A stretch of 64,000 nucleotides of DNA from Loxodes magnus (Eukaryota > Ciliophora > Karyorelictea > Loxodida > Loxodidae). Position 1 is the first letter of the stretch; each line of letters begins with the position of its first letter. Where the stretch lies: contig CAMPDV010000894.1 in the NCBI GenBank assembly GCA_946699065.1, positions 1 to 64,000 of the forward strand, read 5' to 3'. This document shows positions 15,481 through 44,170 of this stretch, one piece after another. Position numbers and translations under genes: made by a program. The notes under the pieces are model-generated. The model was not told where the DNA came from. It searched no databases and was given only the letters and a program-made list of their open reading frames with translations.

Positions 15481-15482
15481 AA

Positions 15483-17230: not shown

Positions 17231-17284
17231 TCTTAATATAAATAATAGCATAATAACATAAAATAATTTAATAATGTGAAAATG

Positions 17285-19040: not shown

Positions 19041-19044
19041 AATT

Positions 19045-21240: not shown

Positions 21241-21726
21241 GTATAAATTAATTATTTAGTTTGCTTAATTATTTACTTTTATAATTACACAATATTTATT
21301 TTCATCTCTATTTAGATAAAAATTAACCATTCCACTATATAAATCCTTATTTGAAATACTTTAATAGACATAATTAAACATATTAAAGCTTATTTTAAAA
21401 ATAAAAGCTTACAATTTAAAAATCTTAAACTAAAATTAGTGATAATGTAAACATTTCTAGTTAGTTTAAATATTTACTTTCTACAACTTTTTTATATTAC
21501 ATTTCTATAACCACTTTCGCTTAGAATAACCATTAAAGTAATTCATTATTCTAGTTCATTATTTTAAGAGGAACCTAAATAAAAAATGCTAATTAATTAT
21601 TAGTAACAAAATAGAGTAATTTTAAGTATACTTAATTAATTAATTATTTAGTTATTTAATTTTCTTTTAATTAAGCCAAATATTTAGATGGCTTAATTAA
21701 GCTTATTGTAACCTATAAATATTAAA

Positions 21727-22700
21727 ATGGAAAACAAATAAAATTTACTAAATGCAATTTTTTGCGAAAACTCTTAAGATAACGAAACGGTTTCTTTGGA
21801 AGAATACCATTTCTTATATTTAAATATGAAATCTTACCAAATTTATGCTTCTAAAGACTTATTAATAAGATTAACTTGGATAAAAGTTAAGGTATTTTTT
21901 AATATTTTTAGACTAAGTCATCACTGGTCACTCCTCATATGTTTACTCGGTAGCCATATCAAATGACCTGAATTGAATTGTATCTAGTTCAGGATACCCT
22001 GAAAATTCTATAAAGATCTGGAAATTACAGACTGTTACCCTCCTAAGAACTTTATCGGGACATACCTCTTGAAATAGCTCGGTAGTTATCTCACCTGATT
22101 AGAAATGAATTATATCAGCATATGAAGATACAAAGATCAAGATCTGAAATTTCCAGACTGGTACCCTCCTAAGAACTTAGAAGGGACGCACTTCTATCAT
22201 TTGATCGGTAGTTATCTCCCTTGACTAGAAATGAATCATATGCAACTAATGATAAAACGATCAAGATCTGGGATTTACAGACTGGCCTGCTTATTCAAAC
22301 TTTTTCTGGTCACTCAAGTTATGTTTTATCGGTAATTTTATCTTTGGACAATAAGTATATAATATCGAGTTCTTCTGATAAATCAAGTAAGATATGAGAC
22401 TTCTCTACTGGTTAGCTAGTTCGTACTCTTCAAGGTCACACGAAAGGTGTATCAAGTATTCAGTTAAATTCTGATTCAAGTGCTATATTTTCTGGTTCTT
22501 ATGACCATTTAATCAAGATATGGGATTTTAATAGGGGTGTGTGTATATAGACTCTTTATGGGCATACATAACCAATTGAATCTATAGCATTGAGTAGTGA
22601 TAATAAATGGCTAGTATCTGGAACAGATGACAATACTGTGAGGAAGTGGAGGATTGCTAGTTAAGAGTTGAGGAATAAATTTATTGAAGACTAATTAAAT
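21727..22700 (+). pseudogene. WD40 repeat protein, copy 1 (one internal frameshift)
   Basis: Exon 1 (to 21891) and exon 2 (from 21912) flank a 20-nt GT-AG intron at the same position as in the copies at 42781 and 56927. Exon 2 encodes six WD repeats, with KIWK, KIWN, KIWD, KIWD, KIWD and RKWR at the blade ends. Several of these Trp codons are UGA, as is the Trp of LNWIVS. WD40 propellers are protein-binding scaffolds. The ATG at 21727 is out of frame with the rest because 4 bp are missing relative to the copy at 57097, and a further frameshift lies near 22232 in the third repeat. It is probably inactive, though its last three repeats are clean. Confidence 0.75.
21892..21911 (+). other. 20-nt spliceosomal intron (predicted)
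   Basis: The 20 bases start with GTATTT and end with TTTAG. Removing them joins the frame that matches exon 1 of the minus-strand copy to the first WD repeat. Introns at the homologous position occur at 42781-42800 (20 nt) and 56927-56948 (22 nt). Confidence 0.75.
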
Positions 22701-22729
22701 TTGAGGGTTTAATTTTTGAATGATTAAAA

Positions 22730-25490
22730 GTAGATAAAAAGTATATATTTGATATTAGATTTGTTATAAAGTTTAAAAGGATTAGTTAATTTTGTATTGA
22801 AGGTATATATATTTTATGTTTATACTTCTTAGTAATTTTAAAGGCCTTAATATTGTTTGGTATTGATATTAAGATTTGAAGTTCGGATAACATTATAATA
22901 AATATTAATAAAATTTAAAACATTATTTAGACCATTTTATGCTCAGCGATTTATCTAGCAAAGATTTTTGGATAGAATAAATAAAATTTTTTTAATATCT
23001 ATAAAAGGAAAAATAGAATAGAAGTTTGAAAGTATTGGAATGTTTTAAAAAATGAATTAAAAAAAACTATAAATGCAAATAGATCTGAAATGGGGTAAGC
23101 ATAAATCTACACATAGGTATAATATAGAATTATAATAAGTTAGCCAAATATAATAATAATATGTAAATAATTAATATAGTTCTCCCTTATACTTAAAGTA
23201 AAATTGAATTTGTTAGTATATTTAGTTGTTCTCCTATAGTGAATAAGTATAAAATAATTTGATGATTAAATTTGACGTAAGCAATAAATAAAAAAATAAG
23301 AAATAGAGTTTGAAATAAATGAGAAGTAGAAGGAACTGTTGATAATATAATAGTTATTGATATAAATTTTGGAAATAGATTTAAAATGATAAATAGTTTG
23401 AAATAATTGATATTTGTTTAAATGAAATATAAATAATTTTACATGATATCTAAGAGATTATTAAATACTTTATATATTATATTAAAATAATTTTAATATT
23501 TTAGATAATTTATTTATTTATCAAATAGAATATTTTATTTAAATTCAAGTTATATTTGTCACTATGAAGAGCAAAATTTAATTTTAATAAACTTAAGTTT
23601 AATCATATTTCATTAATACAGTTAACATTATTCCTAAATACTTCTAACTCAAAAATTTAAAAATATCGTAAAATAAGTTACAAAATTTCTATAATAAATT
23701 TATATTAAATGTATAAAGGAAAATTACACAAAGTAATCCTAAAGGAAACTCCATTTGTATTTTAATTTAAAATGCTATAAATTATATTTTTAGTAAAATT
23801 AATAAAACAAGCTTGATTTTTGTTTCAATGAACTTTCAAAATATAACATATAAAATAATGTCAAAAACAAAAAAATTAAAACTTATTCTAAATTTAATTT
23901 TTAACAACCAACTTTTAGGATTCTAAAAAATGTACATAATTTAGTTTAATTTATAAAAAAATAAGGTTTTAAAGCAAAAGATATTGTCTAAATAAAAAGT
24001 TTCTGTAATATTTGAAATATAATAAGATAATAAATAATATTTGATAATGAATAGCTATAATGAAAGTTTGAATATTAAATAAATAAAATTTAATAAATAG
24101 ATTGATAAATATTAAAAAAATTAGTGATTAAGCTAATTTAAAAGAGTATATTTTTTGATAAAAGAATAAATAATCTATTTATAGGCATAAATAATAAGGG
24201 AATATAAGATTAAATTTTTAATTATTTTAAATTTTACTAAAATATTAAATAGTTTTAAATAAATAAAGAAAAATACATTTTTACTAAAGTTTCTAAATAC
24301 TAAATTAATTATATAGCATGGTTACACATGTAAAAGCTAAGTTGTTCTAAATTTAAAAAATAGTATTTTGAGATTAAATCAAACTATTTATTTATTTTAT
24401 TTAAAAACATTATTATGAAAGAATATTCATAATTATATTATAAAAAAGATAATCTAAGTTTGTACCATTTAATTTTCTTTATCTATAATAGTCTTAATAT
24501 AATAAAATATAACAACCTACAAATAATTAAACTTACAATCTTATATACACTACAATCAATATATATAACTCTATAAATCTATAATCATCATTTAATATAT
24601 ATCTACTGTAGAACATTTATACATCAAATTAGAATTTGCAATCAAACCTTTATTAAAGTTGCTTTAAGAATCAAAAGTTATAACATATAACAAACATTTG
24701 CTACCAAATTATTTAAATTATTTAAATATATCTAAGTATCTTTATACTTAGTAATAATAAAAATGATATTCTAATATAATGCATATTAGCAAAATAAAAG
24801 TAATTAACAAATTAATATCATATTCATTATATCTAAAACATTAAAACTAAAGCTTTTTTAATTTATTAAGATATACTAAGTGTAAGTTAAAGCTATTACT
24901 ATTATATCTATACAAAATGCATATACATAATAATATTTCAAATATTTTATTTAATATCAATTTTAAAAACATTAATCATTTATTTCAATTTAAAAGATCA
25001 ACTAATTCAATTCAAACATTTTCCTATTCATTTTCTAATTATAAATAGTCATTATTTATTACTCATCTATTTTATTTATATTTTACACATTATATGTATT
25101 CAACGTGTCTCAAACTCTAAAATTCCTACATTATTTTAACATCAAACTTAACTCTTAAAAAACTACTTTTTTATAAGATAAACTGTCATAAGGTGAAATT
25201 ATAGTTTAAAAGCAAAATATTTTCATACAAACTATAAAACAAACTATTTATAAGAAATTAATTCAACTTGTGCAAGAATTTAGGGCACTAATATAACAGT
25301 AAATCTCTAAAAATTCCAATTCCAAAAGATATAGATGCAATGCTACAAGAAGACTTATTATTTAGTAAGTTAATCTAGAAATAAGAATTATACCATTATA
25401 GTAGATTTATTTAACAAACTTCATTTATCTTCAAGTTCATATCTTTTAGAAAAATTAAAAATATGTAATTTTAAAATTTTTATATGATAT
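22730..25490. other. AT desert
   Basis: About 2.8 kb of more than 80% A+T sequence. I found no family motif, repeat partner in the window or convincing frame. It probably represents intergenic DNA. Confidence 0.5.
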
Positions 25491-25495
25491 GTATA

Positions 25496-26007
25496 GTTAT
25501 ATTTAAAATATACACTAATTATTAAAAATACCATAGTTAATAAGATGGCTGTAGCATTGATTAATTTTCTGATAAAACCTTCTAATCTTATGATAAGGTC
25601 AAGTTCCTATTCGCTGAGAAATTCTCTGGTAAGAGTCAATCTTAACATGTGAACAAAATCTTTCCGATTACCCACTCTTGCTAGCGGTTTGAAGTCTGTT
25701 GGATCATAGTTATCGAATCCCAAGTTGAAGCTTATTGAATTAAGTAGCAGGATATCTAAGTTGTGTACATTAAGAGAGTGTTATTGGTTGTCTAGTAGAA
25801 GTTTCCAGCCCCTCGAAAGAGAAATTTGAAAATTTATAATTAATTAATTGTAAACTGCTTATTACTCTTTAGATCATCTTTCAAAGATTTAATATGCTGA
25901 ATTGAAAATATTTGTTACTATGCTTGGAGAAATTTGAATAGGTCATTTACCCAATGAGGAACTTAATTGAAGATGGTATCACTATAATTAGTTATTGCTA
26001 TTATTAT
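25496..26007. repeat. Dispersed repeat, copy 2 (pairs with 1-515)
   Basis: Same orientation and same internal structure as 1-515, containing element E at 25544-25830. The downstream sequence diverges at once after 26007. Confidence 0.8.
25544..25830. ncRNA. Element E, copy 2
   Basis: It is the close relative of element E at 51-330, with perhaps 5-7% substitutions, and more distant from the copy at 28470. No function is known; it is possibly a SINE or a structured RNA. Confidence 0.45.
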
Positions 26008-26269
26008 ATGGAAATATTAATAAAATATAGGCATTAAAAATATTAAATTTTAATTAATTTTTAAGAATGAAAATAAAATATTTTCCTTTAAATAAAAATA
26101 AATTTATTAAACATAAATAAGAGTTTAATAATCTGCTTAATTATAAGCATTAAACTAATATCTATTTAAACTAATTTTATTATTTATTTTACTTTTATTT
26201 CATTAAACTAAACTTTTTAATTTTAGTTATTACTATATTATTAAATAGTTGTTCGAATGTGGACAACAA

Positions 26270-26500
26270 GGTCATCTTCATCAGAGGTTGGGGAAGTTAA
26301 GTACCCATAATCGACTTTATGTCTTCCTCTGCTTTGGTTTGGCCTCGAGACATAAGATTCTTAGACCTTCGACGTTGGCTTGGCTTGGCTTCGTTTATTT
26401 TTAATTCTGGAACTAAAAAGAAATAATATTGCGAGCTTCATCAGAGGTGGGGAATTTAAGTACCCATAATTGACACATGTCGTCCTCTGCTTTGGTGATG
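26270..26500. ncRNA. Pair of nested-hairpin units
   Basis: Two related units about 160 bp apart each have an outer stem CAGAGG...CCTCTG (26282-26331 and about 26443-26489), an inner GGGG...CCC hairpin, and the common loop text aagtacccataat or a near match. Stem bases are kept while the loop varies, suggesting an RNA or a DNA cruciform. Between and after the units G+C is raised. No known RNA family was recognised. Confidence 0.45.
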
Positions 26501-26564
26501 CAATGAGACACAATCCTGCCATGTCCTTGGACCTCCAGCAAGTATTAAAGATTACGAGTATTCT

Positions 26565-26690
26565 AAAATCATATCAGTATTGAACATTTTTATCAGTATT
26601 GAATAATTATACCAGTATTGAACAAGATTTATCAGCATCTGATAATTTTATCAGTAACAAACATTCTTGTCAGTATGAAACATTTTTTTT
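26565..26690. repeat. Short tandem repeat, about six units of 20-24 bp
   Basis: The unit is close to tatcagtattgaacattttt and later units drift (cagcatctgataa, cagtaacaaacatt, cagtatgaaacattt). It follows the hairpin pair directly. Confidence 0.7.
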
Positions 26691-26800
26691 AAAGAGCTGC
26701 GCACCAAGGAGAGTGCTACGCGCTCTATAATCAAATTTATTTATTTATTTATAATTAATAAAAATCTATAAGTCTAATTTTAGTTTAATAAATGGATTAG
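26690..26800. repeat. Dispersed repeat with GC-rich hairpin
   Basis: The sequence gagctgcgca...tgctacgcgctc forms an imperfect hairpin. A reverse-complement copy lies at about 56462-56507, joined to a truncated WD40 gene. The AT-rich part after 26735 is related in inverse to about 41690-41760 and 56330-56400. It may be an end of a mobile element. Confidence 0.55.
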
Positions 26801-27730
26801 GAAAGTTGTAAAATATCTAAAAAATAATTTTATTCTTTAAAAAAGAATTCCTAAGATACTTTAATATAGTTTCTTAATGTGCTCAAAATTTGTTAAAGTA
26901 GGTCTTAATGTCGCTCAATAAGTATTTTGTAAGCATATTAGTGAATATTTAAAGGCTTATAATCTGAGTTAAAAGTCTATATTTAAACCGAAAAATATGA
27001 GAAGCTGCTTAATGAATTTCAACAAAAAGCAAAGCTAAATAAAAATGTATAGAATTGTGCAAATATTTAAATAATGAAAGATATAGTAAATTAGTTGAAT
27101 TAAAGTTATTTGATGATTTAAAAACTCTTTTCTAAATATAATAAATTAAGTATATCTTCAAGCCACAAATAATATTAGAGGGTAATTATAAAATAATATA
27201 AGAAAATAGAAGAAATAATTTAAATCTTACATAATTAAATACAAAATATATAAAAATAATTACATTTACCATCATAAACTAAATAATAACAAAAAGAAAG
27301 AGTAACATTATTAAATATAATTAAACAGCAATACGAGCAGATAAAGTAAAAGAATTAGAAATTTAATTAAGCTGAAAATTAAGAAATAAATGTTAACTAA
27401 ATTTATGATCAGTTAATTTAAAATTGTTTTAGCGTGATGAGTTTTTTGGGGAGAAATACAGAATTAAAATCCCATAACATTATAATATTGCAGATATAGT
27501 AAATGAATATTTTAAGTAATAAATTTTTGATTTTGCACAATTAACAGTTGAGAATATTGCTAAGTTCGTAGAAAATTTTTTAAATAAAGTTTTAGCAAAT
27601 ACTAGATTGCAAGAAAACCCTTTAAATTTATCTAGCATATGTAATGATTAAGATATTTAAATCAATTCAAGCAGTTATCAAGTTAAAGCTTGATTTAAAA
27701 ATTGAATGATATCATAGAATTATCTAAGGC
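26792..27730 (+). CDS. Possible gene, unknown function
   Basis: From ATG at 26792 one frame runs about 200 codons with no UGA and reads as a Gln/Lys-rich, partly coiled-coil protein (KYEKLLNEFQQKAKLNK). Near 27430 the better frame changes and continues with DEFFGEKYRIKI and LTVENIAKFVENFLNKVLAN. A short intron or a frameshift would explain the change. No domain was recognised. Confidence 0.45.
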
Positions 27731-27959
27731 AGATAAAAAAGTAAAATAAGCTTTTGCAAATGCGATAATTATCTTAAAATATTTGGACTATAATTTTATA
27801 CAAAAAAACTATGGGGGAATAAGAACCTGAGCTGTTAATTTGAGGGGATTAAATTTTCAGGATTGAAATCTAAGAAACTAAAATTTATAAGAGATTAATT
27901 TAAGGATTACGAAGCTATCAAACTGCAATTTAAATGAAGTAAACTTAACTAATATGTAA

Positions 27960-28295
27960 TTGGAATTGCCTAGACATTCCGTTTCTCCAAATGGGAATTC
28001 TTATGCGATCTTGAATCTTGGATTTTTTCAAAACAAACAATTATTTTAATAGGTATTAATTTTAGAAAAGTGTAAGTTTCCTCAAGACTTAACATCATCA
28101 TCTGTATTAGTTCCTTATTATACGACATGTGAAGTAAGGAGATTTGAATCAAGAACCAGGAATCATAGAATAGGAGCAAACTGTCAGTCGAGGTTTAAAA
28201 CAAGCGATAACCTTGAGTAAGTTAAGTCTATCCTCTAGAGACTGTCGATTCTTATCTACAGTAGCTAGCTTATAGACCAAACTGACAGTAGCCAT
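27960..28295 (-). CDS. Small possible gene, unknown
   Basis: From ATG at 28293-28295 the minus strand reads VYKLATVDKNRQSLEDRLN and LKVIACFKPRL. A change of frame near 28180 then leads into a 69-residue stretch without any stop-type codon that ends at 27970 (LSLEETYTFLKLIPIK). G+C is higher than in the surroundings. It lies about 175 bp from element E copy 3. Confidence 0.4.
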
Positions 28296-28469
28296 AAACC
28301 AGATTTTAAATTGTTAATGTAAATATAATATAAATAAAAAAAATTGATTAAATCTACAAAATTATGAACAAAAAGGGATTAAAAAAAAATAGAATATTTT
28401 AATAAAAATCTATTCATTATAAAATATATGTAAAAGTAAAAAAAATTTAATTTTTATATAATTAAAAAG

Positions 28470-28750
28470 ATGATGGGAGCTGAGAATGACCTTCGTGACA
28501 ACACTTTCTGGTTTTATAGCTAGGAATAAGTTCCTTTCCTGTCGCTGAGAAGTCCCTGGTCAGAGTCATTTTCTGAAGGGAACGCTGTCTTTGAGATTAC
28601 CGCTCTTGGTAGGGGCTTGAAGCCTGGCTGCTCATAGCGATGGAGTTCCCTAGCAGCTGTGCCTGGAGCACAACAGGATATCCCCGTTATTCCATAAAAA
28701 GAGAGCGTTGGGTCGTGCAATCGGAAAGAGTTTCCGGTCCAAAAACTTTT
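28470..28750. ncRNA. Element E, copy 3 (GC-richest copy)
   Basis: This copy is about 50% G+C and probably closest to the source sequence. It aligns over its length with the copies at 51 and 25544. Its second half (about 28590-28745) matches, in reverse complement, 37445-37598 and 52030-52192, which abut 28S rRNA fragments. It is flanked by AT-rich ends with short poly-A and poly-T runs. Confidence 0.5.
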
Positions 28751-28879
28751 TTAGTTGAAATTATTTATAAATTTAATTTTTATATAATAATAATAAACTA
28801 TAAGAGTTTCAATATTTGAAATATTGAGACATAAGTGCATAATTATTGGTAAATAATTAGGCAAATTATGTTAAATTTA

Positions 28880-30450
28880 AAACTTTCTGCGTTTTCAATC
28901 ATGGCTCTCTTTCACTCTCATTTTGATAAGGATTCGACTAGCTCATTTAATCTATTTATTGGTTTCTTTTAATAGGATCTACTTCTTCACTCTAGTCTTT
29001 AAAATATTTAATCTTCTTCCATAATTATAGATTAAATATTTTTATTTTCATGTATTTATCTACTTTCATCATCTTATTTCTGTAAATTATTGAATAATAT
29101 AGTTTTAGTCATATAAAATTAGTCTTCTTTAATCTTTTCCAGTAATTATTTTGTGTTTTTTTTAATTCTTAAAAATGTTTGAATAAAGATTACATTGGAA
29201 AATGTGCTCAAATGTATCAAATTCCTATCTGCATAAACAAACTTAGTTTAATTATGTTTCGATATGTCGCTGATTCACTTCATATTAAAAATTATAAGTG
29301 TAAGTTCTTAGTTTATAGATTGAAATAGTTTCTTGGATTAGATGTCTATTGTATTTGGTGCATGTTATTAAAGGGAAAATATTACAATTACTTTCTATAT
29401 AATCAATAAATCTTTTTGCAGTTCACATTACTGCATTCCTTTAAAGGCATTCTTAGAAGAATTATTTTTAGATTTAAATATTAAGATGCTTATTAAATTC
29501 TTTGAATTAATAAGTTATTTGAATATCTAAATCATATTTTTCAATGTTTTTACCTACATATTTCTTGTAGGGAAGGTTAAATTTAAGTTAATTTCAGTTT
29601 CTTTCTTTTTTACTCAGAAATTAAACTGTTTCACATTTCTTAACATTTATATTAAGTCTTAATCAAGTAAAAATTTAATAGTTTCTGGGTATTTTTTTTA
29701 GAAATCTGCAAATTCAATTAAATCATCAGCAAAACCAAGCACAACGAAAGATCTGGAACAAATATTAAATCCTAATTTCTTTTAATTATTTTCTAAATAT
29801 CTTATTACAATGCCGAAGTATAGAATTGCAAGTATAGGACCACTCTTACTTCCTTATAGAACACCATTATTAATCTTTATTGTTCTAGTAAGATATCCAT
29901 CAATAATAAACTTAGCATCAATATTGCTATAAAATGATTCTATAGAAAGAATTAAATTTAATGGAAATCTCGGTCTTCTTAAATTATCAAAAAGTAACTT
30001 CCTATGTATACTATCAAACGTCTTTTCTACATCAATTAAAGTAGCAATTAATTATTTTTTCGTGATCATCTACAATTTAAATCAATGATTTATTAAACAG
30101 TTCAAAATTAATTAAGTAGTAGAAGTTCATAGAGAAATCCAAACTAAGCTAAGTGTAAAATATTTCGTTCATATATATAATTATAAAGCCTTTAAGTAAT
30201 TACCTTATCATAAATTTTTAACATACATTTTAGCAAAGCAATAAGTTTCAATTACTTCAAATATTTTTATTTCCTTATTTGAAAATAGGAATTATATTAA
30301 CTTTTTTCAAACCATTAGGTATATTAAACGTTCTAAACATATTATTTATAAAACAAGTAATTATTTTATATAATTATTACCCTCCATATTTAATAAGTTC
30401 AGCTTTAAAACCATCCTGAGGCTTTATTGTTATTTAATTAAGATATTATT
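28880..30450 (-). mobile_element. LINE-C reverse transcriptase and C-terminal region, fairly intact
   Basis: Reading on the minus strand gives DGFKAELIKYGGQQLYKII (about 30410), PNGLKKVNIIPIFKQG, a short disrupted part where NYRPISLL is expected, then IDVEKTFDSIHRKLL, NNGVLQGSKSGPILAILYF and the catalytic GFADDLIEFA (FADD at 29722-29733). A thumb-like region with NVKKCETVQFLSKK follows. The C-terminal knuckle is CRQEFDTFEHIFQC (about 29194-29241), and a basic tail runs to about 28880. UGA again serves as Trp. It is the best preserved reverse transcriptase of the window. The endonuclease expected upstream is missing; LINE-C ORF1 follows instead at 30590. Confidence 0.85.
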
Positions 30451-30589
30451 TTTTTAATTTAAAATTCTGAAAAAAATTTTTTTTCTAAAGATGACTCAAT
30501 TGCTATTGTTGATAAAATACTTATTTTTATATATTAAATTTATCTTATTATTCTATTTTTTCTTAACTAAGATTTGAATGGTTATTAAA

Positions 30590-31560
30590 AACTTGAGTTT
30601 CTCAACTGTTATTAAATAGTTAGTTTAATTATAATTAATTTAGTTACGAATTTTTATCAATTATTACCTATCTCAGGTTAATTTAAATAATTAGCTAAGC
30701 AATCTTTATGCTTTAGGATCCAAATTTTTGCTTGCTACTCTTCTTTATAATTTCTTTAGGTTTTATATTTTTATTTATGTATCTTTTATTTTAGTGTGTT
30801 ATTTCTTGTTACATATTTTACCACTTTTTTATATTCAAGCATAATTGTTTATTAACTTTATTTCTTTTTATGTTCTTCATTACTTAGTATTGTATCTAAT
30901 TTTTAGAAAGTCTTCACATCATTTATTGCCAATTTATTTAACTTTACTCGTAAAATTTTTTCTTTCGGTTAAGTAGGAATATTTTCTGGATAAGTGGCTT
31001 CTGATAATTCTAGGTACATAGTTGTTGTGCCATCAAGTTATATTGTTTCTTTTACTGTATGTAAAACTGTCTGCTTTATATTTCCGAAGACTTTTAACTT
31101 TTTTTATTTTGTAACTGAACTTTTGAAGTAGCGAATTAAGTAGTTATTATTTTTTAATATTAATTAATATTTATTTTCTTGCTAAAATATAAAAAGATTA
31201 ATATTATCATTTTCTATGCTAGAGAATTTATCAAATTATATTAATCAGATAAAAAAATAGAATAAATTAAATTCTTATTTTTCGTACTTAATCTATATGT
31301 TATCCAAATTCTATCTATCGGTACTGAAGAGTTCCATTAATACGGCACATTATTTTATTATGCCTGAGTTGTAAATTTTAAAATATCTCTTTATATAAAA
31401 TTGAGATAGATTATTCTTATTCTTAGATGAAGTTTTCTACTTTATATTTTTAAAGTTACTTATTTTATAAAATTTTATTTTTTGTTAATTTTATTAGTTC
31501 GACATATTTTCCTAGCTTTTTTTCACCCTTAGATATCGCTCATAAAAACTTGATATCGAT
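30590..31560 (-). mobile_element. LINE-C ORF1 C-terminal part, copy 2
   Basis: Homologous to 10290-11300 and 44310-46210 on the same strand. It lies between RING-kelch copy 2 and the LINE-C reverse transcriptase, all in one direction. Compared with copy 3 it lacks the 45262-45985 segment carrying the zinc knuckle. Confidence 0.6.
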
Positions 31561-32151
31561 GTTGTTTTATTCTTACTGGTCTTTCATATTAATCTCGAAA
31601 AGTTATTATGATTGAGTTTTTATCAAGAGTATAGGAGTTGTAATGGCATGATTTTATTATTAGCTATAGAAGGACAATTTTAATTATATATTGTAGTTAG
31701 TTTAAATGATTGAAGGAAATAATGTATTTTAAATTTGAAGATGTTGAATTGATGATAGTAGTGATGATTTAATTAGTATTTAGATATAGGTATAGCTTAA
31801 GTATTATTTGATTATAGTTTTGATTTGATTAGATATATAATAGAGTAATCTAAATAGTACTTGTATAATTTGATTATAAGGATGTATTTAATGACAGTTT
31901 TTTTGACTGTGTTGAATATGTTTTGGCATATTATAAGCTGTATATTTGTATCTGAATAATGATAATATTTGAATAATAGATTTTTAAATATGTTTAGGTA
32001 AAATCTTATCTTTATTTATTTCAGACGCTTTAAATATTTTAATAAGTAGTAATATATTTAACTAATTATAGATCTTTAAACTAATTCTTTACATATGAGA
32101 CTATATTTATTATAAATACTATTAATAATAAAGATATTATTATTATGTTTA

Positions 32152-33546
32152 TCAGTTATGACTTCTAATACTTCTATAACTCAATTTTTCTAAATCAATC
32201 CTCATTATTGAAACTCTTTCCTATTCGTAAGCAAAAGCATATCCATAGTTATTTCTTATTTTCATCTCCGTTAAAGCATAGACATCTTTAAAAATTTAGC
32301 TTTATTGCCATTATTCTTTGCTTATTTTATATATTCTTCATGAATACTCTTTCGTAAATGCATTTTTCATACCTCCAAATATGACAAAAGGCTCTAAACA
32401 AATTATAGGATAAACAACAGCTTCAGGAAGATTCAAATTTTACTTACTTCATCTATCATTCTATATGTTATATTTTCATATATCTTTAAAAGCTTATGCT
32501 TTCTAATTTATCCCTCCAAAAGAATAAATATTTTATTCATCTTTATCTACTACTAAAGTTTAACCTGTTATTTAGAATGGAAATTAAGAGCAGTTTTATC
32601 ACTTACTTTAGTTTTCCATCTTTAACTTTTCTACTGATTATAAAACCTTATTATTATCAGTACCTCCTCCAATAACATAAAGAAATTTTTAGGCAGCTGC
32701 TATTCCAAAGCCACCTCTTCCCTCATTTAGATCACTAAGTTTTATTCTATTACCTTCAAAATCAAATTATCAAGTTTCTTTTATTTCTTTCTTTTAATTT
32801 ATGCTAATTCCTCCAATTAAATATAACTTATTTTAATATTCTATACTATTACTATAGTCTGGAATTATAATTTAAACTTAGACTTATCGTAATTACTCTG
32901 TTTAAATATTAAATAAACTTAATTTTTAAATAAAGTAATTAAAAAAGTGAATATAGTTAGATTATATAAAGTGTTAGGTTAGTTTATGTTAATTAGTCTA
33001 AATAATATTTGGTTACTTAGTATTGTGTTATAGTTTGTATCTTATTAGATTGTAAGTTAATTTAGACTTTAGTATTGTAGGTGGTTATGAGTTATATTAG
33101 AGTATAGTTGGTTTTAGTGATTAGTAGAATTAGATAATATTTGAGTGTTATTTTTGGTAGATAAATGTTGGTTAATGATTGATGATGATATTAGTTAGTG
33201 GTATTATGAGAGTATTACTAATGTTTGATTATTTGGTTGTAATGGTTTTAGATTTTTCCATAATTTACCTCCTTATCTCTTTTAATTTCTATCTAGCATC
33301 TTAAATCTTTTATATGTATTATTAGTTTTAAAATATCATTCTTATTAAATCACTTTCTTAAGGTAAATCATCAAATCTAAAATGGAATCCTTTTTAACAA
33401 ATAGGACATTACATTATGCCTTATAATCAGTACTCAGTATTCAAACACAAACCACAGTAAATATGTCCACGAGGTAAGACAGTTGGAAGAGCATTAGTTA
33501 AGTTGTAATCTTCTAAGCAGATTAAGCATTTTGGTAACGCTTACAT
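32152..33546 (-). CDS. RING finger-kelch repeat protein, copy 2
   Basis: ATG at 33544-33546, UGA-UAA end at 32149-32154, 464 residues. It has the same architecture as copy 1: RING at residues 7 to about 52, a Lys/Gln/Thr-rich linker, and kelch turns LYLIGG, LYVIGGG, IYSFGG and FVIFGG. In-frame UGA codons lie at kelch Trp positions: KETW (32770-32772), SKW (32599-32601), DIWKYN (32476-32478), DRWSK (32449-32451) and YSW (32338-32340). The third RING Cys (PCGH in the other copies) is Arg here, from CGT, so one zinc site is probably damaged. The frame is otherwise intact. It is likely a ubiquitin ligase paralogue that may have lost activity. Confidence 0.85.
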
Positions 33547-33739
33547 TTTTATTATTATTTAGACTACAAAAGCTATAAAGCTAATTTATAACAGTTACCA
33601 TCAAAAATTAGTATATAAATATCTATTATTACATTATTACTTTATTTACTTAAATACTACAATATTAAACTATTATATCAAGTAGCTATCCTATATTCTG
33701 CATGCCGCCAATCTTAGATCGAGATTGGTTATTAAATTT

Positions 33740-36370
33740 AGCAAAGGCATGAAAGAGCTTTACAATTTAATCAGATCTTCTATATTATTTTTAAGAAAAA
33801 AGACTCCGTCGCAAAATATTATAACTACTAGGAGGAATGAACAAAAACAATGTGAAAGAAATCTTAAAACTAAGCAACAGATCAAAAAAGTAGGTAATTT
33901 ATAACATCATATCAGATCTCAGCTCTGTGCAAATCTTTTAATGAAAGAAGAAAAGAACGAGTAAAGGCCTTAAAATGAGGAGGAGAATATGCAGCTCAAA
34001 ACTGCTAAAAGAGTAGAGTTACTTATTTAAATCAATTTTTAGAAGAAAATTACTACAACCAAAGACTCAGTCCAGCAGATATGCAAGAAAATGAAATAAT
34101 TCAAGCATTTCTCAGATACCTGAGATAAGATATGGAAAAAATATTTAAAGTATGGAAATCTTTCAGACAGGAATAATTATTATATTATTCAAAAATAAGG
34201 GAAGACTCACTCAATTCGCAAACAATTAACATGGAAATTTAGAAATTTTGTAATACTAACAGAGCAAAGAAACATAGAGGAATTCTACAGCATTAAGAAC
34301 TACCTGATTCATTGAATATTTAGCATGTATTCAAGTTTTAATTAGGTAGAAACCAATTTGGAGCAGTACAGAAAATAGTATGTACAGAGATCGGAAACGT
34401 AAAAAGGAGACAATGGGAAAATGAAAAATTATTTAGAATTGAAGGAGATCAAAGATGCAGAAAGTATACTAGATAAGTTAGACGAAAGGTAAAGCACTTA
34501 CTTGAGGCAGTCTGGAAATCCCATACACGTATCGTTGTATCGCCAACCATCAATTTTAAAATGTATGAACTGTAACCAAAAAGGGCTCAGCTCAAATTTT
34601 CTCTTAAGAAAAAAAAAATATAAAGGAAGCAATTAAAATGCTAAGGAAGTAAAAATCAGGTTGATACATTCAGAAATCAGGAATAAACAGGAATAAAACG
34701 CCTTACTATAAAGAGAAACAGATAGCGAAAGAAAAGAAAGTGAAGAAAACTGAATAAGATTAACCTTCAAATAAAATACCACTTTTATTTCTAGAAAAAG
34801 CTAAAAGTTTAAGCCATACTAAAGTTTCTTTAAAAGCGATCGATTTTAATAGATACTTAACTACAAAATTAAATAAATAAAACTAAGGCGAAACTATCAA
34901 TGTCAAAAAAAACAGAAAGTAAAATAGGAAAAATACCAAAAAAACTGAAACATATATAAAGCAGCGACAGGAAGTAAGTATGCATAAATACAACACTTTC
35001 TCAAAAAAGATAGAAAAAAATACATAGGATGATAGTATCGAGTAAAAAATGAAGACACAAGTACAGAAAAATAATAAACATTAGAACAATTTGGTTTTCA
35101 TGCTATTAAAGAAGAGGAACTAGGAATCCAGGATAGGAGGATCAAGAAAAATTGGAAGTACAAGGAAATACTAATATAATAAAATAGAAAAAATTAAACA
35201 TAGGCACAACAAATGCCAGAGGAATAAAATAAAACAAGAATTGAACAAGTTTATGTGTGAAAAAGATAGAAATTATGGCAATTTAAGAAATATTTGCGGA
35301 TCAAATTGATGAAGATCGTTATATATACGGATTCAAAGCAATAATAAAATTGAGCACAAAACACTGCAAAGGAGTAGCATTTTATATAAAAGATGGAATT
35401 ACCATCAGACCAAAGTATTTAATATAACGGATCTCAATCAAGCAGAATTATTTTAGAGAGGAAGATTTATATGTTTAACACTTGATGATGGGTAGCATTG
35501 ATAAACGTATATAGCACTACAACATCGAACTCTGATTAAAAAATACCCTTTTATGAAAATCTATAATAATTCATAATAACAGCAGAGAATTATAAATTTT
35601 AGGGAATTTTAATGCGCATATTCCTCAATTTTTATCGTATGAGCAGAATAATGCAGGCTAATACTTATTTAACTTGATGAAAGATTATCTTTTAGAATTT
35701 AAAGATCCAAATCAAGATCCAACCTTCATCATAACATAAAGGAACGGATAATCCAAAATAGAATACTTCTTAACGGATCAATATATCACGCCTAGCATTA
35801 TTAGCACAATATTTTATCAATAGAGACCAATAGGAGATCATTACCAGACAAATAAAGATAAAAATTTCGGAAGAATTTCGAAAAAACCAATAAATTAAAG
35901 GGATAAACTTTCAAAAATTAAAGCAATAAAAGGTTCTAGAGAGATTCAAAGAATGATTGAAGAAAACAGATATTTGAAACTTTAGATAGCGAAGCATAAT
36001 ATGAAAAATGATTAGAATACATCCAAGAAGCGACCAAAGCGATATGTGGATTGTAACAAATTAAATGAGAAAATATTATATACAGCAGAAATAATAAAAC
36101 TAAGAAAAAATTTCAATAGAAGGTAAAATAAGTAAATATCTAATATGATAAAGATGCTAATAAATTGATAATTATATTAAAATGAGATAAGAAGCAAGGA
36201 GAAAATTTAGATTGCATCAAAAAAAAGATAGAAAAAATCAATTAAATATATTCCTAGATGAAATTAATTAAAGAAACTTAAACAACACTTGAAAAGGAAT
36301 ATAAAGACGATTAAAGTAGAGAAAATATGCACCATGGATATTAATAAAAGAAAAGAATATACAGAATTTT
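33740..36370 (+). mobile_element. LINE-A copy 2
   Basis: This is the longest LINE-A copy on the left side. The ORF1-like part spans 33740-35150 and contains a possible knuckle remnant CMNCNQKGLSS near 34560. The AP-endonuclease domain runs from about 35195 to 35720 with TTNARGIK, AIQEIFADQ, KGVAFYIKDG, LINVYSTT and GNFNAH (35602-35619), and the post-endonuclease basic linker ends at about 36350. Several frame changes and no reverse transcriptase are present, so it is dead. Its 5' end faces the RING-kelch start. Confidence 0.8.
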
Positions 36371-36379
36371 AAGGAAAGT

Positions 36380-37330
36380 AGAGAGGAAAGTTTATCTGCT
36401 ATGTAAAAGCTTTAAATCTCTTATTATCTCAAATAGAGTGTTACTAATAATGAAAGATAGAGATTAGGATTTAAAGGATGAGCTCTAAGACTATTTCCAT
36501 TCCTTGTCTTCTCTTATCTGTTTTTTTATTTTAAATTACTAAAAGCTCTCAAATATCTTTCTTACTACTCTATCTCAATTAAGAAAATACAATAGTTAAA
36601 TATCTCTTCTAACTTATCCTCTTGATATATGGAGTATGCATTATAAAATGAAGCATTAATTCTAGGTTAGAAAGTACTTGGTAATAAATTTGATAGGTTA
36701 GTCTAATTGGATATTTGTAATGTTGAGGTTATTAAATACTTAGCTTCTAAAATCTGTAAGATATAGTTAAAGCATTTAAGGATTTATTATAATTCTAAGC
36801 ATATGGTACTATTTTTAAATAATCTTGCTCTTCTCTTTATCAGTTTCTATGTACATGTTTGCAAACTAAGTTTGTATAAGTAAATAACAAATTAGAGGGA
36901 AATTTCTTGCATTAATGGTATAATTTTAAAAGTAACTATTAATTATATCTTAACTAATAAATAGCCTATTATAGTTAATTAAGCTACTTTTATTTCCTTC
37001 AGTTTAAATAGTAGTTATCTATGTGAATAATATTAAACTTATTTTTACTAGATTCAAATAAAATCTCAATCTGCTAAGTCTTAATTATGTCAACAACTGT
37101 TTCATCAAGAGCTCAAAGGCCTAACAAGTTAGAATGCCAATCAATTGTAAGAGATGTTTGAAAGATATTTATAAGCTTTAATAAAAGTTAAAATGTAGAA
37201 ACCATAGCATCATTACACTAAAGCCTAATAATTGCAAAGCGTTCCTTCATAAAATAACCAGAGAATATTAAAAACTATTTAGTATAAGTAAAGATAATTA
37301 TCAGTCTCTAACTTTATATTGCAATTAGGA
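36380..37330 (-). CDS. LRR-like protein, copy 1
   Basis: On the minus strand one frame reads about 310 residues with regular Leu spacing (LRLSRLRFYLNLVKISLILF, KHLLQLIGILTCQAFELL), then VFNNLNITNIQLD, then a charged Ser/Gln-rich tail (KIKKQIREDKEWKQSQSSS) near 36520. I infer a leucine-rich-repeat type solenoid, usually a protein-binding surface. The segment 36662-37321 shows no difference from 51267-51923 by eye, far better conserved than its flanks, which supports function or recent conversion. A plus-strand reading is also Leu-rich, so the strand is not certain. Confidence 0.45.
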
Positions 37331-37444
37331 TAAGGGATATGTGAAGTATCAAAATAAGATTATCATTAAAATCATTAAAGTGATAGATAAAAAGGGATAA
37401 TTCCTATTACTTAAGTGCAGAACTATTAAATTAATTTCAACTAA

Positions 37445-37598
37445 AAGAGTTTTTGGACCGGAAACTCTTTCCGATTGCACGACCCGACACTCTCTTTTTA
37501 TGGAATAACGAGGATATCCTGTTGTGCTCCAGACACAGCTGCTAAGGAGCTCCATTGTTATGAGCAGTTAGGCTTCAAGCCCCTACCAAGAGCGGATA
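37445..37598 (-). ncRNA. Element E half copy, joined to a 28S fragment
   Basis: The reverse complement matches about 28590-28745, roughly 92% by eye. It stops at the text aagagcg and 28S-like sequence follows immediately, giving a chimeric junction. The same junction is present at about 52192 in the duplicate. Confidence 0.65.
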
Positions 37599-38372
37599 CA
37601 GAAACTTTCTAGCAATGTAACTGGATGGGAGAAACCGCCAGGTAGGGAGTTTGACTGGGGCGGCACATCTGTTAAAAGATAACACAGGTGTCCTACGGCC
37701 AGCTCAATGGGACAGAAACCGCTCACAAACCAAAAGGAGAAAAGCTGGCTTCATTCAACCTCTCAGTTTCAGAATGAACTGGGAAGCCATGGGCTATCGA
37801 TCCTTTGCCTTTTACGAGTTTTAAGCAAGAGGTGTCAGAAAAATTACCACAGGGATAACTGGCCTGGGGCAACCAAGCGTTCATAGCGCCGTTGCCTTTT
37901 GATTCTTCGATGTCGGTTCTTACTATCATTGTGAAGCTGAATTCACCAAGTGTCGTATTGTTCATCCGTCAAAAGAGAACATGAGCTGAGTTTAGACCAT
38001 AGTGAGCCAGTTTAATTTTACTGTATTGATTACTGCATCGCCATAATAATCCAACTCAGTACGAGAGGAACCGTTGGTCCAGATCACTGGTATTGCCATT
38101 GGTTGAACAGCCCGTTTGATTACGCTATCATCTGCATAGATTATGACTGAACATCTCTAAGTCAGAATCTAATCTGGGAGCGATGCCTTCTATCTACTTA
38201 TGAAAATAATACTTTTTATATCCCCAAGCTCTCCTCATTTCTGTTAACAGAATAGATGAATAATAACATACAAGCAGAAAGGATAGATCCTTTGTAGACC
38301 AATAAATATTTGACCTGGGGTTGTACACATAAGAGTAAGCTTGCCTTATGATCTGCTAAGACTTTTCCATGG
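37598..38372 (+). rRNA. 28S rRNA 3' fragment (domains V-VI), copy 1
   Basis: Diagnostic large-subunit text is present in order: gtttgactggggcggcac, the peptidyl-transferase-loop segment accacagggataactggc, gcgttcatagc, ttcttcgatgtcggt, the sarcin-ricin loop agtacgagaggaacc (about 38059), and the 3' end near gatctgctaagact. Everything 5' of domain V is absent, as are 5.8S and 18S. Substitutions against copy 2 fall inside conserved helices, so at least one copy is a pseudogene. A truncated rRNA with an intact 3' end inserted in a repeat fits a reverse-transcribed rRNA pseudogene. Confidence 0.85.
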
Positions 38373-39045
38373 TTACCTGATCTATCTCTCTACAGGACTT
38401 TTACTCTCCTTATTTGCTTTACTTACTTTTAGTAAGATACTTTAGTTATTTTAGTTACTCTAGCACCTTTAGTTAATATACTTGTATCAGCTGGTTCTAC
38501 TGGGGAATAAATGAGTTATAAGAAAATGATAGGTAAAAATTAGGAATTTGATTGTTTGATCTAGAAATGTATATAATATGCATAAAAGTGATAGACTAAA
38601 ATTAAAAGCTATGATTGAATAAACTAGAGACAGGTAGGATTGTATATTGAAAATAAGATATTAAACTAAGGATAATATTTGAATATTTGATTAGTATTAA
38701 CAACTTAAATTATTGCTTTTTATATTTAAATAAAAAAATATTTATATACAATAATTTATTAAATAAAATATAGCTTTACAATTATAAATTTATTCTACAT
38801 TTTCTTATTATTAATACTTTTAATGTATATAGTAAACATCCATATACTTGCTAACATTATTAAGCTTAAATACAAATTTATATTCATTTTTATTATTTTA
38901 CAACTGGCAAATTTAATTATCATCATTTTGCAAATATTAACCTTGCTTTTATAAAAATGGCTGTATTTAATGAAAAGGAAATTTAAATCAATATTTTTAA
39001 AATAAATCCTTTATAATAATCATATTTTTCACTTCGTTCCTACCT
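38373..39045 (-). other. Stretch between 28S fragment and family F gene
   Basis: The minus strand has a protein-like segment at about 38380-38520 (VEPADTSILTKGARVTKITK), and 38490-39030 is almost identical to the duplicate. The rest is AT-rich. It may be the end of another gene or the far 3' part of family F; I cannot define it. Confidence 0.3.
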
Positions 39046-39049
39046 TAAT

Positions 39050-41400
39050 ATTTACTCCTTTGTTGCTCCATCTACTCTAGGCTTCGTATTTCGAGGATTG
39101 ATTGAACAAATTAGAATTTCTTTACTTCTTCTTATATATGTTCCGAACGATATTGAATAAATGGAGATCATCATATTTCAATACTTATCTTTCAGTTTTT
39201 TTTTCTTTCTTTCAGTCTTCTCAATAGAGTTCTATCGTATTGCAAATTCTACATTCTTAATCTTTTTATGGTTCAAATTTGTTTATATTTTGATTGTTGA
39301 CTGTTTAATTTCTATTAATATAGCATCGTTTAGAATAGTCTAACTTACTATGCTTTTCTATTAGATTCTTTAGATTTTTTTCTTAATTTTCTAAATGGAT
39401 AATTTAATTTTTGTATAGGCAAAATTATCGTCTTACTGTTCCTCAATTATCATTAAATCTGTTTATCTATAGAAATATTCCTGTCTTCGCTTATCTGTCC
39501 ACTATGTGGATTTCATTATCGTCCTCGTGCTGTATGAGATCCTTTTTTATTGTGTTTACTTTTCATGGTCCCAGCAAGAGCATACATTTATTTTTCCAGA
39601 TCCTAAATTTAGTCGATAAGGGCTAAAATGTTTTAGCGATTTCTCTAAGGATTTGGGTGTTGTTTAAGTTTGGTGTAAAAATGTTTAATTTAGGTAATGA
39701 ATTAAGGAATTGAGTGTAGATTTGTGTATGTTAATTTTGGATGGTTATGTGTTTGTAGGTTTGTGTGTACTATTGTTAGTTTTTGAATATGAGATGAGTA
39801 ATTTTGGTAATTGAATGTAGTTTTGAATTTGAGATAGTTATGTTAAAATAGTATTGTTTAAGGTATTTATAAAGTATTAAAGGTATAATCTTAAATGCAA
39901 TATATTGATTATTAATTAATAAATAAAGATTTAACTAAATTTAATAGAAAAACGTACTATAGGAAACTTATAGCTATTAAATTACTATTTTGCAAATTTA
40001 AAAAACTGTCAATCAGCAAAAATGATGAAAATATTAAAATTATAATTTCATCAATTTGAAAGACTATTTATTTAATAAATTACAAAATGATCAGATTAAT
40101 AGTCTGCTAATCTTAAAAAATATGATGGAAACATAAAAAATGCAGTAATAAAAGTTTAGTAAGATAAAAGTAAAATAATTTAAGGTATTATAAGGTAATT
40201 AAGAACTTAAAATTATTTAGACAAATTTAGAATATTTGTTTCTAAATACATTCAATATCACCATTATTTTTCACTAGAAAATTACATAGAAATAGGTAAA
40301 AATGGAATAAAAATTATAAAATTAAAATAAAAAATATAAAGAAAAAATTAATTAATATGATTATTTTAATAACTAATAATGCTTATAGATTCCCTATATT
40401 TTAGTTACCAATTCAATTTTACACTATAAAAACAATAAAATAACACTAATCAATTTCATTAACAACAAAAAGGAGTTATATATCTAATTAATTAAGCAAT
40501 TCATTTAATGCAGCTATATCATTCTCTTCATTTTTAAAATAAGCAACTTAATACAAATTATTTAAATCAAACTAAATCCAATTATTTATATCTAGTTCGG
40601 AACTAACTAACTAAATCAAATCTATTTCAAGCCAAAAGTCATCATAGTTTTCAAATCTATTTGTTTTGCATATTCTTATTAACTACCTTTATAAATTAAA
40701 TAGTAGAGCTAAATATTTATATGCAGACTCAGATTACAGATATGAACGATAAGGATGCAACAACGAACCAATAAATAATAACAAACAAGCTAATAGTTTA
40801 TCATTATTTAAGCTTTAAGGCTTATAATCTAACAATACTTATTGTATATCTATTTCATTAATTTTTCAAACGAACTTTAATAAATCTCAGATTATATCAC
40901 AGTACTGTTATTACCCTTATAACAATATAGAATTACATCTCTAATCAAATTTGTCTATTATATCTTGAATGCTAATCCTATACTTTCTCTTCAACTTTAG
41001 AACTGAGATTACATAATCTTCTCCTTTTTATTTTTACTCTAATACTATTACAAGCCAATATATTATAGGCTCTTAATAATTAATATCCTTAACTCATAAA
41101 TAAATACTTAAAGATTGATTTTAGTTATACTTAAGTATGGCTCTAAATAGACTTTTAATACCTTCTTTTGATTATAGAAGCTGCTTTTCTTATTTAAAAT
41201 TCCTTTTATACTGCTAATAGCTTTTCTCTTATTTCTTTATTACTAAATAGCTCTTAAAATATGAAATATTCAACCTTACGAATTTTTATTTCTTAGTAAC
41301 TTTTAAATGCTTTTACCGAAGACAAAGTTTTAAGAATAGGTTCAAAAATTTCTATATGTATTATTAATTTCATTTTAAATAGGAAGGAACAATCCGCCAT
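39050..41400 (-). CDS. Family F protein, copy 1: long, unknown function
   Basis: ATG at 41398-41400 opens MADCSFLFKMKL and a basic helical region (EKLLAVQKEFQIRKAASIIK). A frame change near 41110, perhaps a short intron, leads into one frame that runs unbroken for over 500 codons from about 40980 to 39050. This frame contains very few UGA codons, each at a plausible Trp (SELDINNWIQFDLNNL, QLDIQLLFVVNEIDQ). A hydrophobic Leu/Ile/Phe-rich middle is followed by Thr/His/Asn-rich and charged segments (ALIDQIQDLEKQMYALAG, HTARGRQWNPHSGQ). Total is about 780 residues. The middle (39620-40640) is nearly identical to the duplicate. No domain was recognised. Confidence 0.6.
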
Positions 41401-41700
41401 CTGATTTTATTTAAACTCTGTTATCAGGAAGTACCCCATGGGCGAAGAACAGAGCAAGAATCTTGATAGGAGCCAAGAGAAGACAAGAGGTATCAAGTAG
41501 CGTTAATGATGAAAGATTCCAGATACTAAGGTTTCTTATGGAGCATTCAGATAATGGCCTATAGAAGACAAGATTCACAAATGAATGCTAGCACTATGGA
41601 AGACTTCAGAAAATAATTTTTAATTTTAAAAATCTTTATTAAAGAGCTGAACATAATCGAGGAGCTGCTTCAAATCTTATCTATTTATTATTGATTTTAA
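41401..41700. other. GC-richer upstream region with hairpin
   Basis: Just upstream of the family F start is a perfect 7-bp stem, ctctgtt...aacagag (about 41415-41453), with an inner CCC-ATG-GGG type hairpin. It is kept in the duplicate at about 56040. The rest includes a gagctg motif shared with the hairpin repeat at 26690. It could be a promoter, a 5' leader or a small structured RNA. Confidence 0.35.
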
Positions 41701-42659
41701 AGATATTTATTTCTTCTAAATTTAAATAAAAACTAAAATTAGACTATAAATTTGTAAATAGTAATTTGAAGCTTCTTAATAGAAGTAGTTAACATAGTAA
41801 AGCTTATTTAATAAAGGTTTTAAATTTGTAAACTAGAATTAGAAATAATGTAAGCATTTCACTGTGTGATACTCTTATTTATTAGGTTTCTTTTATTTTT
41901 TAATTAAATTAGTATAAGGAAATTAGCTTAGGTTAAATATGAATTATAAGTAATAAAGTACTTTTGTAAATATAAAAGAAGAGATTAGTTAAATAAAAAG
42001 TTTAAATGAATTAGTAATAAGAAAGTGGATAATTAAATAATAATTTCTAAAATAAACAATTTAATACTTTAAACTATACATTTTACTTACTATAGTTACC
42101 ATTTTAACTAATTTTCTTAAAATAATCAAATATTATATCACTAATTTATTATTAAATGCAAAGGAATAACTATTCTTAATATCACCTATTTTCAATACAT
42201 TAGAATCTAATATTTTACTTATTATTCAATGTAATTATAAAAGAAATCTAGCCTTTTTTATTAAAGAATCTAGATTTAAAACTCAAATAAGCTATAATCA
42301 ATAAAAGCAAAGCAAAGTTACTATAATAAGAATATAAATTCTTGCATATTACTTTTGATAAAATAAACTAAAAGCAAAAGAAATAAAATAAAATAGTAAA
42401 ACTTACTTATGCTTAACTATTTTAAATTATATCAATCTAATCGAAAGGAAAAAATAAATTTTTTAAATTATTTTTTAATATTAAAGTAACTTTATCCAAG
42501 ATTCTAATAAATAATTTAAATATTCAATTGTGTTTTATTTAAAGTAATAAAAATTATTTTCATAAGATGAATTATTTTATTATTAAATTATTAAAATAAT
42601 TTATAAAATAAAAATTTAAAAATAAAGAAACATAATTTGTTAAAATTATTTTTTAAGAA

Positions 42660-43290
42660 AAATTTAAGACAAAGAAGCATATCCCTAGGCAGAATATATT
42701 TTCTTCTTTTTAAATATGAAAACTGCCAAACTTGAGCTTTTTAAAAGTTGAAAATAAAATTATCTACGACTAATCTAAAAGTAATTCTTTAATATTTTAG
42801 ACTAAATTTTGACCGGACATTCGTTTGCAGTTAACTCGGTAGTAATAGCAAAAGATCAGAAATTATCAATTTCAGTATCTGACGATGAAACGATAAAAAT
42901 CTGAGATTTCCAGACTGGAAACTGTATGAGAACTTTAATTGACCATTCAGATTATGTATAATCTATAGTTCTATCAAATGATAATAATTTTATAGTAACT
43001 GTATCTGGTGATAAATCATTTAAGATAGAGAATTTCTAGACAGGATAATGTATAAGAACAATATCAAAAAATTGTTATGTGAAGTGTTAATAATTAAGGA
43101 TAATAAGTTCATAACATCAGGAAATCAAGGTAAACTTATTAAGAAATGGAATTTCTCATAGGAGTGAGTGTATGTACTTTATAAGATCATACAGATAAAG
43201 TAAATATTTGGCTTTGAGTAGAAATAATAAGTGGTTAAAATCTAAAGCTAATGACAAGACAGTTAGAAAGTAGAAGATTGCTAACTGAGC
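42660..43290 (+). pseudogene. WD40 repeat protein, copy 2, decayed
   Basis: Exon-1-like sequence ends at 42780, a 20-nt intron follows (42781-42800), then WD repeats with KIWDFQTG (Trp is UGA) and FKIENFQTG, where the Trp codon became Glu. Later repeats are shortened and frameshifted, and the last piece (NNKWLKSK, VRK) matches the end of copy 1. Fewer blades remain than in copy 1. Confidence 0.75.
42781..42800 (+). other. 20-nt intron in decayed WD40 copy
   Basis: Starts GTAATT and ends TTTAG at the position homologous to the introns at 21892 and 56927. The splice signals survive although the gene is decayed. Confidence 0.65.
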
Positions 43291-43699
43291 AAGCAAATAT
43301 ATTTAAAACTTTAAAACTTTTACAATTTAAGAAGTAAATTGATAAAATTAAGTAAATTCATGTAAGTATTTATAAAAGAATTTATAAATATAAAAATCTT
43401 TTAAGCTTTTATAGTTTATAATATTTTATGATCTATATCTGCTTTTTTCTACCAATTTAAATACTAATTACCCAGATTAATAATCATCTAGTTTTCTTTC
43501 CTTAAAAATTCTTATGCTAATTATGCTGTAAGTAATTCATTAGTCCGTTAAAAAATATTCAATTTTAAACTTTTTTTTCCTGTTGTAGTAATCTAGGTTA
43601 GGTCTTTTGCTGGATCATTCCATTCTAGTTTGAATTAATTCATTATTTTTAATAGCTATTATTCTGCTGGGTTTAGTTAATTTGGTAGAATTTATGTAT

Positions 43700-44170
43700 A
43701 TGTGTATTAAATCTCATATTATAGTATTTTATAAACTTAAACTATTTGTTATGTATTTGAATTATTTTAGGCTTTCATAGAAAGGGATTAGTTATTCCTA
43801 CTCGAGTGTTGTAGGCACATATACATTGATAAATTTAAATCTATCATCAAGATTCATACAAATTATTCTGCCGCCTTCGAGTATTTAATTTAATTTTAGT
43901 CCATTAGCATCATGCTCTTTAACTTTGTATAAAAATAGTTCTTTAATATATAAAATCATTCCTTTACTAAGTCTAGCTCCTGGCTTTTTAACTACGCGAT
44001 ATCCGATTATTTAGGGCATATCTTTAATTGAATCTATAAACATTTCTTGAGTCATCATGATATCTATATTTTTTTCAAGTATAAATTTACTTAACTCTTC
44101 TTTGTTCAACTTGATTCCTCTTACACTATCAGTTCTTATACTTTATTAATTTCAAATTTTCTTGATCTTC
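43700..44170 (-). mobile_element. LINE-C AP-endonuclease domain
   Basis: The minus strand reads IMMTQEMFIDSIKDMPQIIG, then PGARLSKGMILYIKE, then GGRIICMNLDD, then FKFINVYVPTTLEQEQLIPF and YESLKQF. This is the order of the APE-type endonuclease that nicks target DNA in LINE retrotransposition. It follows LINE-C ORF1 (44310 onward) in the same direction, as in an intact element, but ends before the GDFN-H motif and the reverse transcriptase. Confidence 0.8.

Follow-up and report, generated by a model that had tools for sequence, protein, structure and literature searches.

The stretch of DNA analysed here (64,000 nucleotides in its entirety, hereafter the window) would, with good probability, belong to the nuclear genome of a karyorelict ciliate whose genes follow the ambiguous code of NCBI translation table 27, the likeliest candidates being Loxodes magnus and its near relatives. 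Reading UAR as Gln and UGA as Trp is very probably the best overall reading of its coding sequences, and it is supported by kelch profile scores, codon exchange between paralogues, the balance between TGA and TGG and the columns of WD40 repeats. An earlier, sequence-only reading of the window had made these assignments and held that all three stop codons are sense codons; this stands for internal UAR and UGA but is half the story, since UGA is very probably a terminator as well, judging from the ends of all four copies of a RING-kelch gene. The code itself is already described, most likely being the known karyorelict code. What the case adds is that the raw DNA alone indicates table 27 for this contig, whose genes would be missed or truncated under the standard code or the usual ciliate code.

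The RING-kelch gene is present in the window as four duplicated pieces:

2704 to 3042, minus strand: copy c1, 3' part only, ending in TGA.
11851 to 13245, minus strand: copy c2, with eight internal TGA codons, five on Trp columns and three off them (254, 295 and 396).
32152 to 33546, minus strand: copy c3, 464 codons and a terminal TGA at 32152-32154, with Cys26 changed to Arg in the RING.
46738 to 48132, minus strand: copy c4, with Cys26 kept and four internal TGA codons (40, 316, 357 and 413), all of them on Trp columns.

The minus-strand frame of 464 codons running from 33546 to 32152 exists as described earlier and contains 57 codons that are stops in table 11, namely 50 TAR, six internal TGA (33427, 32770, 32599, 32476, 32449 and 32338) and the terminal TGA. 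With TAR read as Gln and TGA as Trp, Pfam identifies the RING as zf-RING_UBOX (residues 7-48) and the kelch part as PF24681 (E 2e-19, best stretch at residues 282-421). All best Pfam stretches of c3 lie inside residues 6-59 and 208-425, and residues 60-207 are devoid of any at E values up to 1, so that the assertion that the frame matches its families end to end is too strong. By eye, the linker between RING and kelch (33040-33300, minus strand) has a C-rich and G-poor coding strand when compared with the flanking coding sequence, and its coding status is uncertain. An AlphaFold2 model of c4, for which three close sequences were at hand, was uninformative (mean pLDDT 31.5).

Alignment of the copies reveals ten internal columns with TGA in at least one copy, six of which are Trp columns. 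Columns 40, 316 and 357, which are Trp positions of the RING and kelch domains, carry TGA throughout the copies present, and at the Trp columns 259, 366 and 413 the paralogues exchange TGA with TGG and nothing else; the four remaining columns (254, 295 and 396 in c2, 403 in c3) show unrelated codons in the other copies. The five UGA codons that had been placed on kelch Trp positions in c3 are thus reduced to four (259, 316, 357 and 366, with TGA or TGG in all copies present), the fifth, at residue 403 (32338), facing AGA in the three other copies. Copies that swap UGA and UGG in this way provide a small natural data set on the drift of an ambiguous stop/sense codon.

The identity of UGA was further examined on the kelch part of c3 by setting every TAR to X and trying 17 residues for TGA (A, E and P left out). 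Trp gave the best PF24681 score of the 17 (49.9 bits, as compared with 36.9 for X), followed by Y (42.5), M (41.5), H (41.4), F and V (39.5 each), Q (38.6), L (38.3), I (38.2), C and N (37.7 each), T (37.3), K (35.7), S (35.3), R (33.5), D (33.3) and G (30.6), and it was also top-scoring on Kelch_4, ATRN-LZTR1 and Kelch_6. A sample of 763 codons from the kelch and WD40 domains, which are Trp-rich, partly decayed and partly paralogous, holds 15 TGA, 9 TGG, 35 TAR and 11 CAR. The TGA:TGG ratio of 15:9 resembles the A:G ratio of 91:38 in the pooled Lys, Glu, Leu and Arg pairs (Fisher p 0.47), whereas other codon sets contrast with it, four-fold Gly and Val codons having 88-91% A and CAA:CAG standing at 3:8.

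Three WD40 paralogues, given here with the bounds examined rather than with gene ends, supply a second set of Trp positions:

21732 to 22679, plus strand: paralogue A, with a 20-nt GT-AG intron at 21892-21911, seven TGA in the repeats counted and a frame break near 22244.
42621 to 43066, plus strand: paralogue B, with a 20-nt GT-AG intron at 42781-42800 and, among the repeats counted, a single TGA, which occupies the WD Trp.
56512 to 57088, minus strand: paralogue C, with a 22-nt GT-AG intron at 56907-56928 and one TGA in the repeats counted.

Across 12 stretches of the three paralogues picked by eye, and leaving out frame-shifted downstream remnants of B that contain further TGA, nine TGA codons were counted, eight of which fall in three columns that have TGG in a sister repeat. 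Three are at the WD Trp, four lie in a column where sister repeats have Trp, Tyr, Phe, Leu or Ala, one is opposite a sister TGG, and one is in a column with Tyr in several sisters. The WD40 support claimed for UGA as Trp from the motifs KIWN and LNWIVS is real. On paralogue A, PF00400 scores 62.4 bits with TGA as W, 59.0 with Y, 51.7 with L, 49.1 with R, 45.3 with C and 44.8 with X; over the 11 WD40 models reached with Trp, the best of the five residues tested was W on five, Y on five and R on one. Furthermore, taking out the GT-AG segments (20, 20 and 22 nt) joins the frames at one and the same site, between an upstream exon, which is well conserved between A and C and less so in B, and the first WD repeat.

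For UAR, TGA was fixed as Trp on the kelch part of c3 and ten residues were tried for TAR. PF24681 ranked Gln first of the ten (Q 74.5 bits, N 71.7, K 71.6, S 68.4, E 62.5, D 61.9, H 61.8, R 59.2, Y 44.6, L 39.7). Gln was best on two of the seven kelch models reached with it (PF24681 and NANM), the others giving K (Kelch_4 and ATRN-LZTR1), N (Kelch_1), D (Kelch_6) or E (Kelch_3), and the WD40 profiles barely separate Q from E. The evidence from aligned sites is clearer than these scores. Indeed, TAA and CAA exchange between copies at kelch column 414, CAR and TAR exchange at the site YD-Q-SK, and the WD40 column after W-D-F comprises, in 11 codons, five CAR, two TAR and one each of Ser, Asn, Ala and Tyr; in the RING-kelch frame, a Gln reading makes the changes synonymous at four of the nine variable TAR columns and nonsynonymous at the other five. 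A TAA also aligns with the Gln of GVKQG, a motif of R2 reverse transcriptases, in the first of two retroelement fragments:

29668 to 30093, minus strand: non-LTR reverse transcriptase core, matching an R2 protein in the PDB (E 1.5e-6 with all stops as X), with TAA at the Gln of GVKQG.
35581 to 35826, plus strand: weak endonuclease-reverse transcriptase match, Exo_endo_phos_2, E 0.00088, below the curated cut-off.

With regard to termination, all four copies of the RING-kelch frame, which represent one gene family, have TGA as their final triplet, and in each of them the last 22 codons are free of UGA and UAR while the next 11 triplets past the terminal TGA include five or six UAR. The GC content falls from 26% to 14% across the end of the c3 gene. 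In L. magnus, UGA and UAA are depleted over about 20 codons before the stop (PMC11441545). We envisage that UAA and UAG would be Gln, and that UGA would be Trp inside coding sequence and a stop at its end. Sense reading would be the default, with tRNA-Trp outcompeting eRF1 at internal UGA, and eRF1 would win where only a short 3' UTR separates a UGA from the poly(A) tail, as may be extrapolated from PMC4967479. A scan of the 64-kb window run with the bacterial code returned no tRNA. As a tRNA-Trp(CCA) with a 4-bp anticodon stem is reported to read UGA in some ciliates (PMC13092985), the presence of a tRNA-Trp(UCA) is not a necessary test.

The window resembles L. magnus, as portrayed in PMC11441545, in having UAR as Gln, UGA as Trp (table 27), an AT-rich 3' flank, tiny introns, and fragmentary non-LTR retrotransposons with Exo_endo_phos_2; in its one RING-kelch family it may also share UGA as stop and a stop-proximal stretch free of UGA and UAA. 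A difference resides in the domains sampled here, where UGA outnumbers UGG, and the text consulted gave no figure for UGA usage across the L. magnus genome. The karyorelict Parduczia sp. and the heterotrich Condylostoma magnum (table 28) are alike in translating all 64 codons with UAR as Gln and UGA as Trp, but UGA is rare there, at 0.120% and 0.042% of codons respectively (PMC4967479). Against UGG, UGA is more frequent here than those figures would lead one to expect, albeit in a sample of 763 codons from domains that are Trp-rich, partly decayed and partly paralogous. One could imagine a ciliate lineage, possibly an unsampled karyorelict, with UGA as its majority Trp codon (15 UGA to 9 UGG) and its sole stop; we regard this as unlikely, and if true its load of ambiguous codons would be far above the 0.04-0.12% of C. 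magnum and Parduczia.

A Condylostoma-type code (table 28), as in a heterotrich, in which each of the three codons serves as sense codon and as possible terminator, makes identical assignments of UAR to Gln and UGA to Trp, and UAR may act as a stop as well, the gene ends being known from one gene only; C. magnum genes end in UAA and UAG too. We nevertheless regard this code as improbable. UGA usage in C. magnum is 0.042% (PMC4967479), against 15 of 763 codons in the Trp-rich domains considered here. Introns in L. magnus have a mean length of 19.3 nt and a mode of 17 nt, 93% being up to 25 nt and those under 16 nt negligible, whereas heterotrich introns are 15-16 nt, a figure stated for the group and not for Condylostoma specifically (both from PMC11441545). 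The WD40 introns of 20, 20 and 22 nt, deduced from the restoration of the frame, lie within the 16-25 nt of most Loxodes introns and outside the 15-16 nt of heterotrichs, so that table 27 is preferred to table 28.

The ordinary ciliate code, with UAR as Gln and UGA only as a stop, would require the frames to be pseudogenes whose TGG codons have decayed to TGA, a scenario that appears quite improbable even though several observations speak in its favor. The dN/dS ratios among the RING-kelch copies range from 0.66 to 2.31, about 1, and variable sites are evenly spread over the codon positions (29/31/31), so that the copies show no sign of purifying selection since they were duplicated. Cys26, which we take from the RING consensus to be a zinc ligand, is Arg in c3 and kept in c4; off-column TGA occur three times in c2 and once in c3, and the frame of WD40 paralogue A is broken. 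Moreover, in a decay model with substitution rates taken from the flanking DNA, 46% of new TGA fall on Trp codons, and the probability of the observed placement is 0.29 for kelch (6 of 10), 0.011 for WD40 (8 of 9) and 0.015 for both together (14 of 19), so that TGA placement alone barely beats decay.

On the other hand, the TGA found at columns 40, 316 and 357 in every copy present predates the duplication, all TGA of c4 are on Trp columns, and the TGA:TGG ratio is like that of the Lys, Glu, Leu and Arg pairs. In columns with TGA or TGG in at least two copies, TGA makes up 14 of 18 codons, whereas kelch columns with the Gly pair GG in at least two copies kept GG in 46 of 48 codons, a retention that is partly by construction because the columns were chosen for GG. 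The frame is also devoid of indels between c2, c3 and c4, within a block extending from about 32037 to 33766-33931. Between c3 and c4, the bins at 32250-33250 hold 57 substitutions and no indel, while the 5' flank (bins 33750-36250) holds 243 substitutions and 33 indels and the 3' flank (bins 31500-32000) 88 substitutions and six indels, from which 7.7 and 3.9 indels, respectively, would be expected in the frame by hand calculation; the indel-free block overruns the frame by about 115 nt at its 3' end and by 220 nt or more at its 5' end. On the level of sequence, these data do not fit ciliate code 6, under which UGA would never be sense, although pseudogene decay leaves that code some room.

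Tables 27 and 28 had been named as the only known nuclear codes with this combination; table 27 is the best fit, but a third lineage is published, the syndinian Amoebophrya sp. ex Karlodinium veneficum, which is alike in UAR as Gln, UGA as Trp and UGA as terminator (PMC6394959 and PMC12005148). An Amoebophrya-like origin is most improbable because this organism, which is not a ciliate, strongly favors UGG over UGA in its dynein heavy chains and has CAA as its commonest Gln codon (PMC6394959), against 15 TGA to 9 TGG and 35 TAR to 11 CAR here, and its classified repeats are LTR elements, most repeats being unclassified (PMC12005148), as opposed to the non-LTR reverse transcriptase of the window. 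Scarcely more credible is the code of Blastocrithidia nonstop, alike in having all three stops as sense codons and UGA as Trp but with UAR as Glu and UAA also as a stop (PMC12153298), since Glu about equals Gln on WD40 A2 and exceeds it on Kelch_3 and Kelch_1 but falls behind on PF24681 (62.5 against 74.5 bits), TAR and CAR exchange at aligned sites, and TAA occupies the Gln of the reverse transcriptase motif GVxQG.

Two further motifs had been put forward in support of UGA as Trp, and both exist as sequences but lend weak support: WKAVGPDGI of a presumed LINE (UGA at 16471), and HQWKYC at 1056-1073, whose CCHC spacing is C-x2-C-x3-H-x4-C. We presume that the Trp of neither is a conserved column of its motif. 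Pfam gave no reverse-transcriptase or zinc-knuckle match at these regions in the frames searched (plus strand 1-9991, 15001-24991 and 34981-44972; minus strand 1-9990, 15000-24990, 24990-34980, 44970-46000 and 56400-64000), and 16000-17799 on the plus strand had no match in the PDB at E values up to 1. CCHC zinc-knuckle-like motifs are seen at 16080 (plus strand), upstream of two motifs (16471 and 17164) that resemble those of reverse transcriptases, and at 45593 (minus strand). Self-BLASTP of the six frames was dropped as coding evidence, as paralogues matched in several frames, the DNA copies being too close for it to be informative; self-trained codon-usage gene finding was likewise set aside, its segments lying on both strands and being mostly un-gene-like. 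A search for relatives among viral contigs gave six stretches that fit the pattern, none of which was confirmed.

The window has a GC content of 22-29% per 4 kb. At the 5' end of the RING-kelch gene, some 600 nt (32975-33580 in c3 and the corresponding parts of c2 and c4) are identical in the three copies except at 33471, while their kelch halves differ by 4-10%, which suggests recent gene conversion or mosaic duplication. A segmental duplication of about 10.5 kb (31390-41815 and 45982-56452) is 93% identical and includes, on the plus strand, two copies of the 3' portion of a eukaryotic LSU rRNA (37502-38383 and 52105-52981), which differ, so that one or both of them are probably pseudogenes. 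At 28443-28788, a 306-nt insert is bounded by 20-nt direct repeats; part of it resembles the start of the LSU fragment in inverse orientation, and it looks like a retroposed RNA copy. An R2 target site at this LSU-like piece near the reverse transcriptase (28.6-29.7 kb) is unsupported, the piece being inside the insert. Finally, a 0.6-kb direct repeat links positions 1-582 with 25494-26074 at 91% identity.
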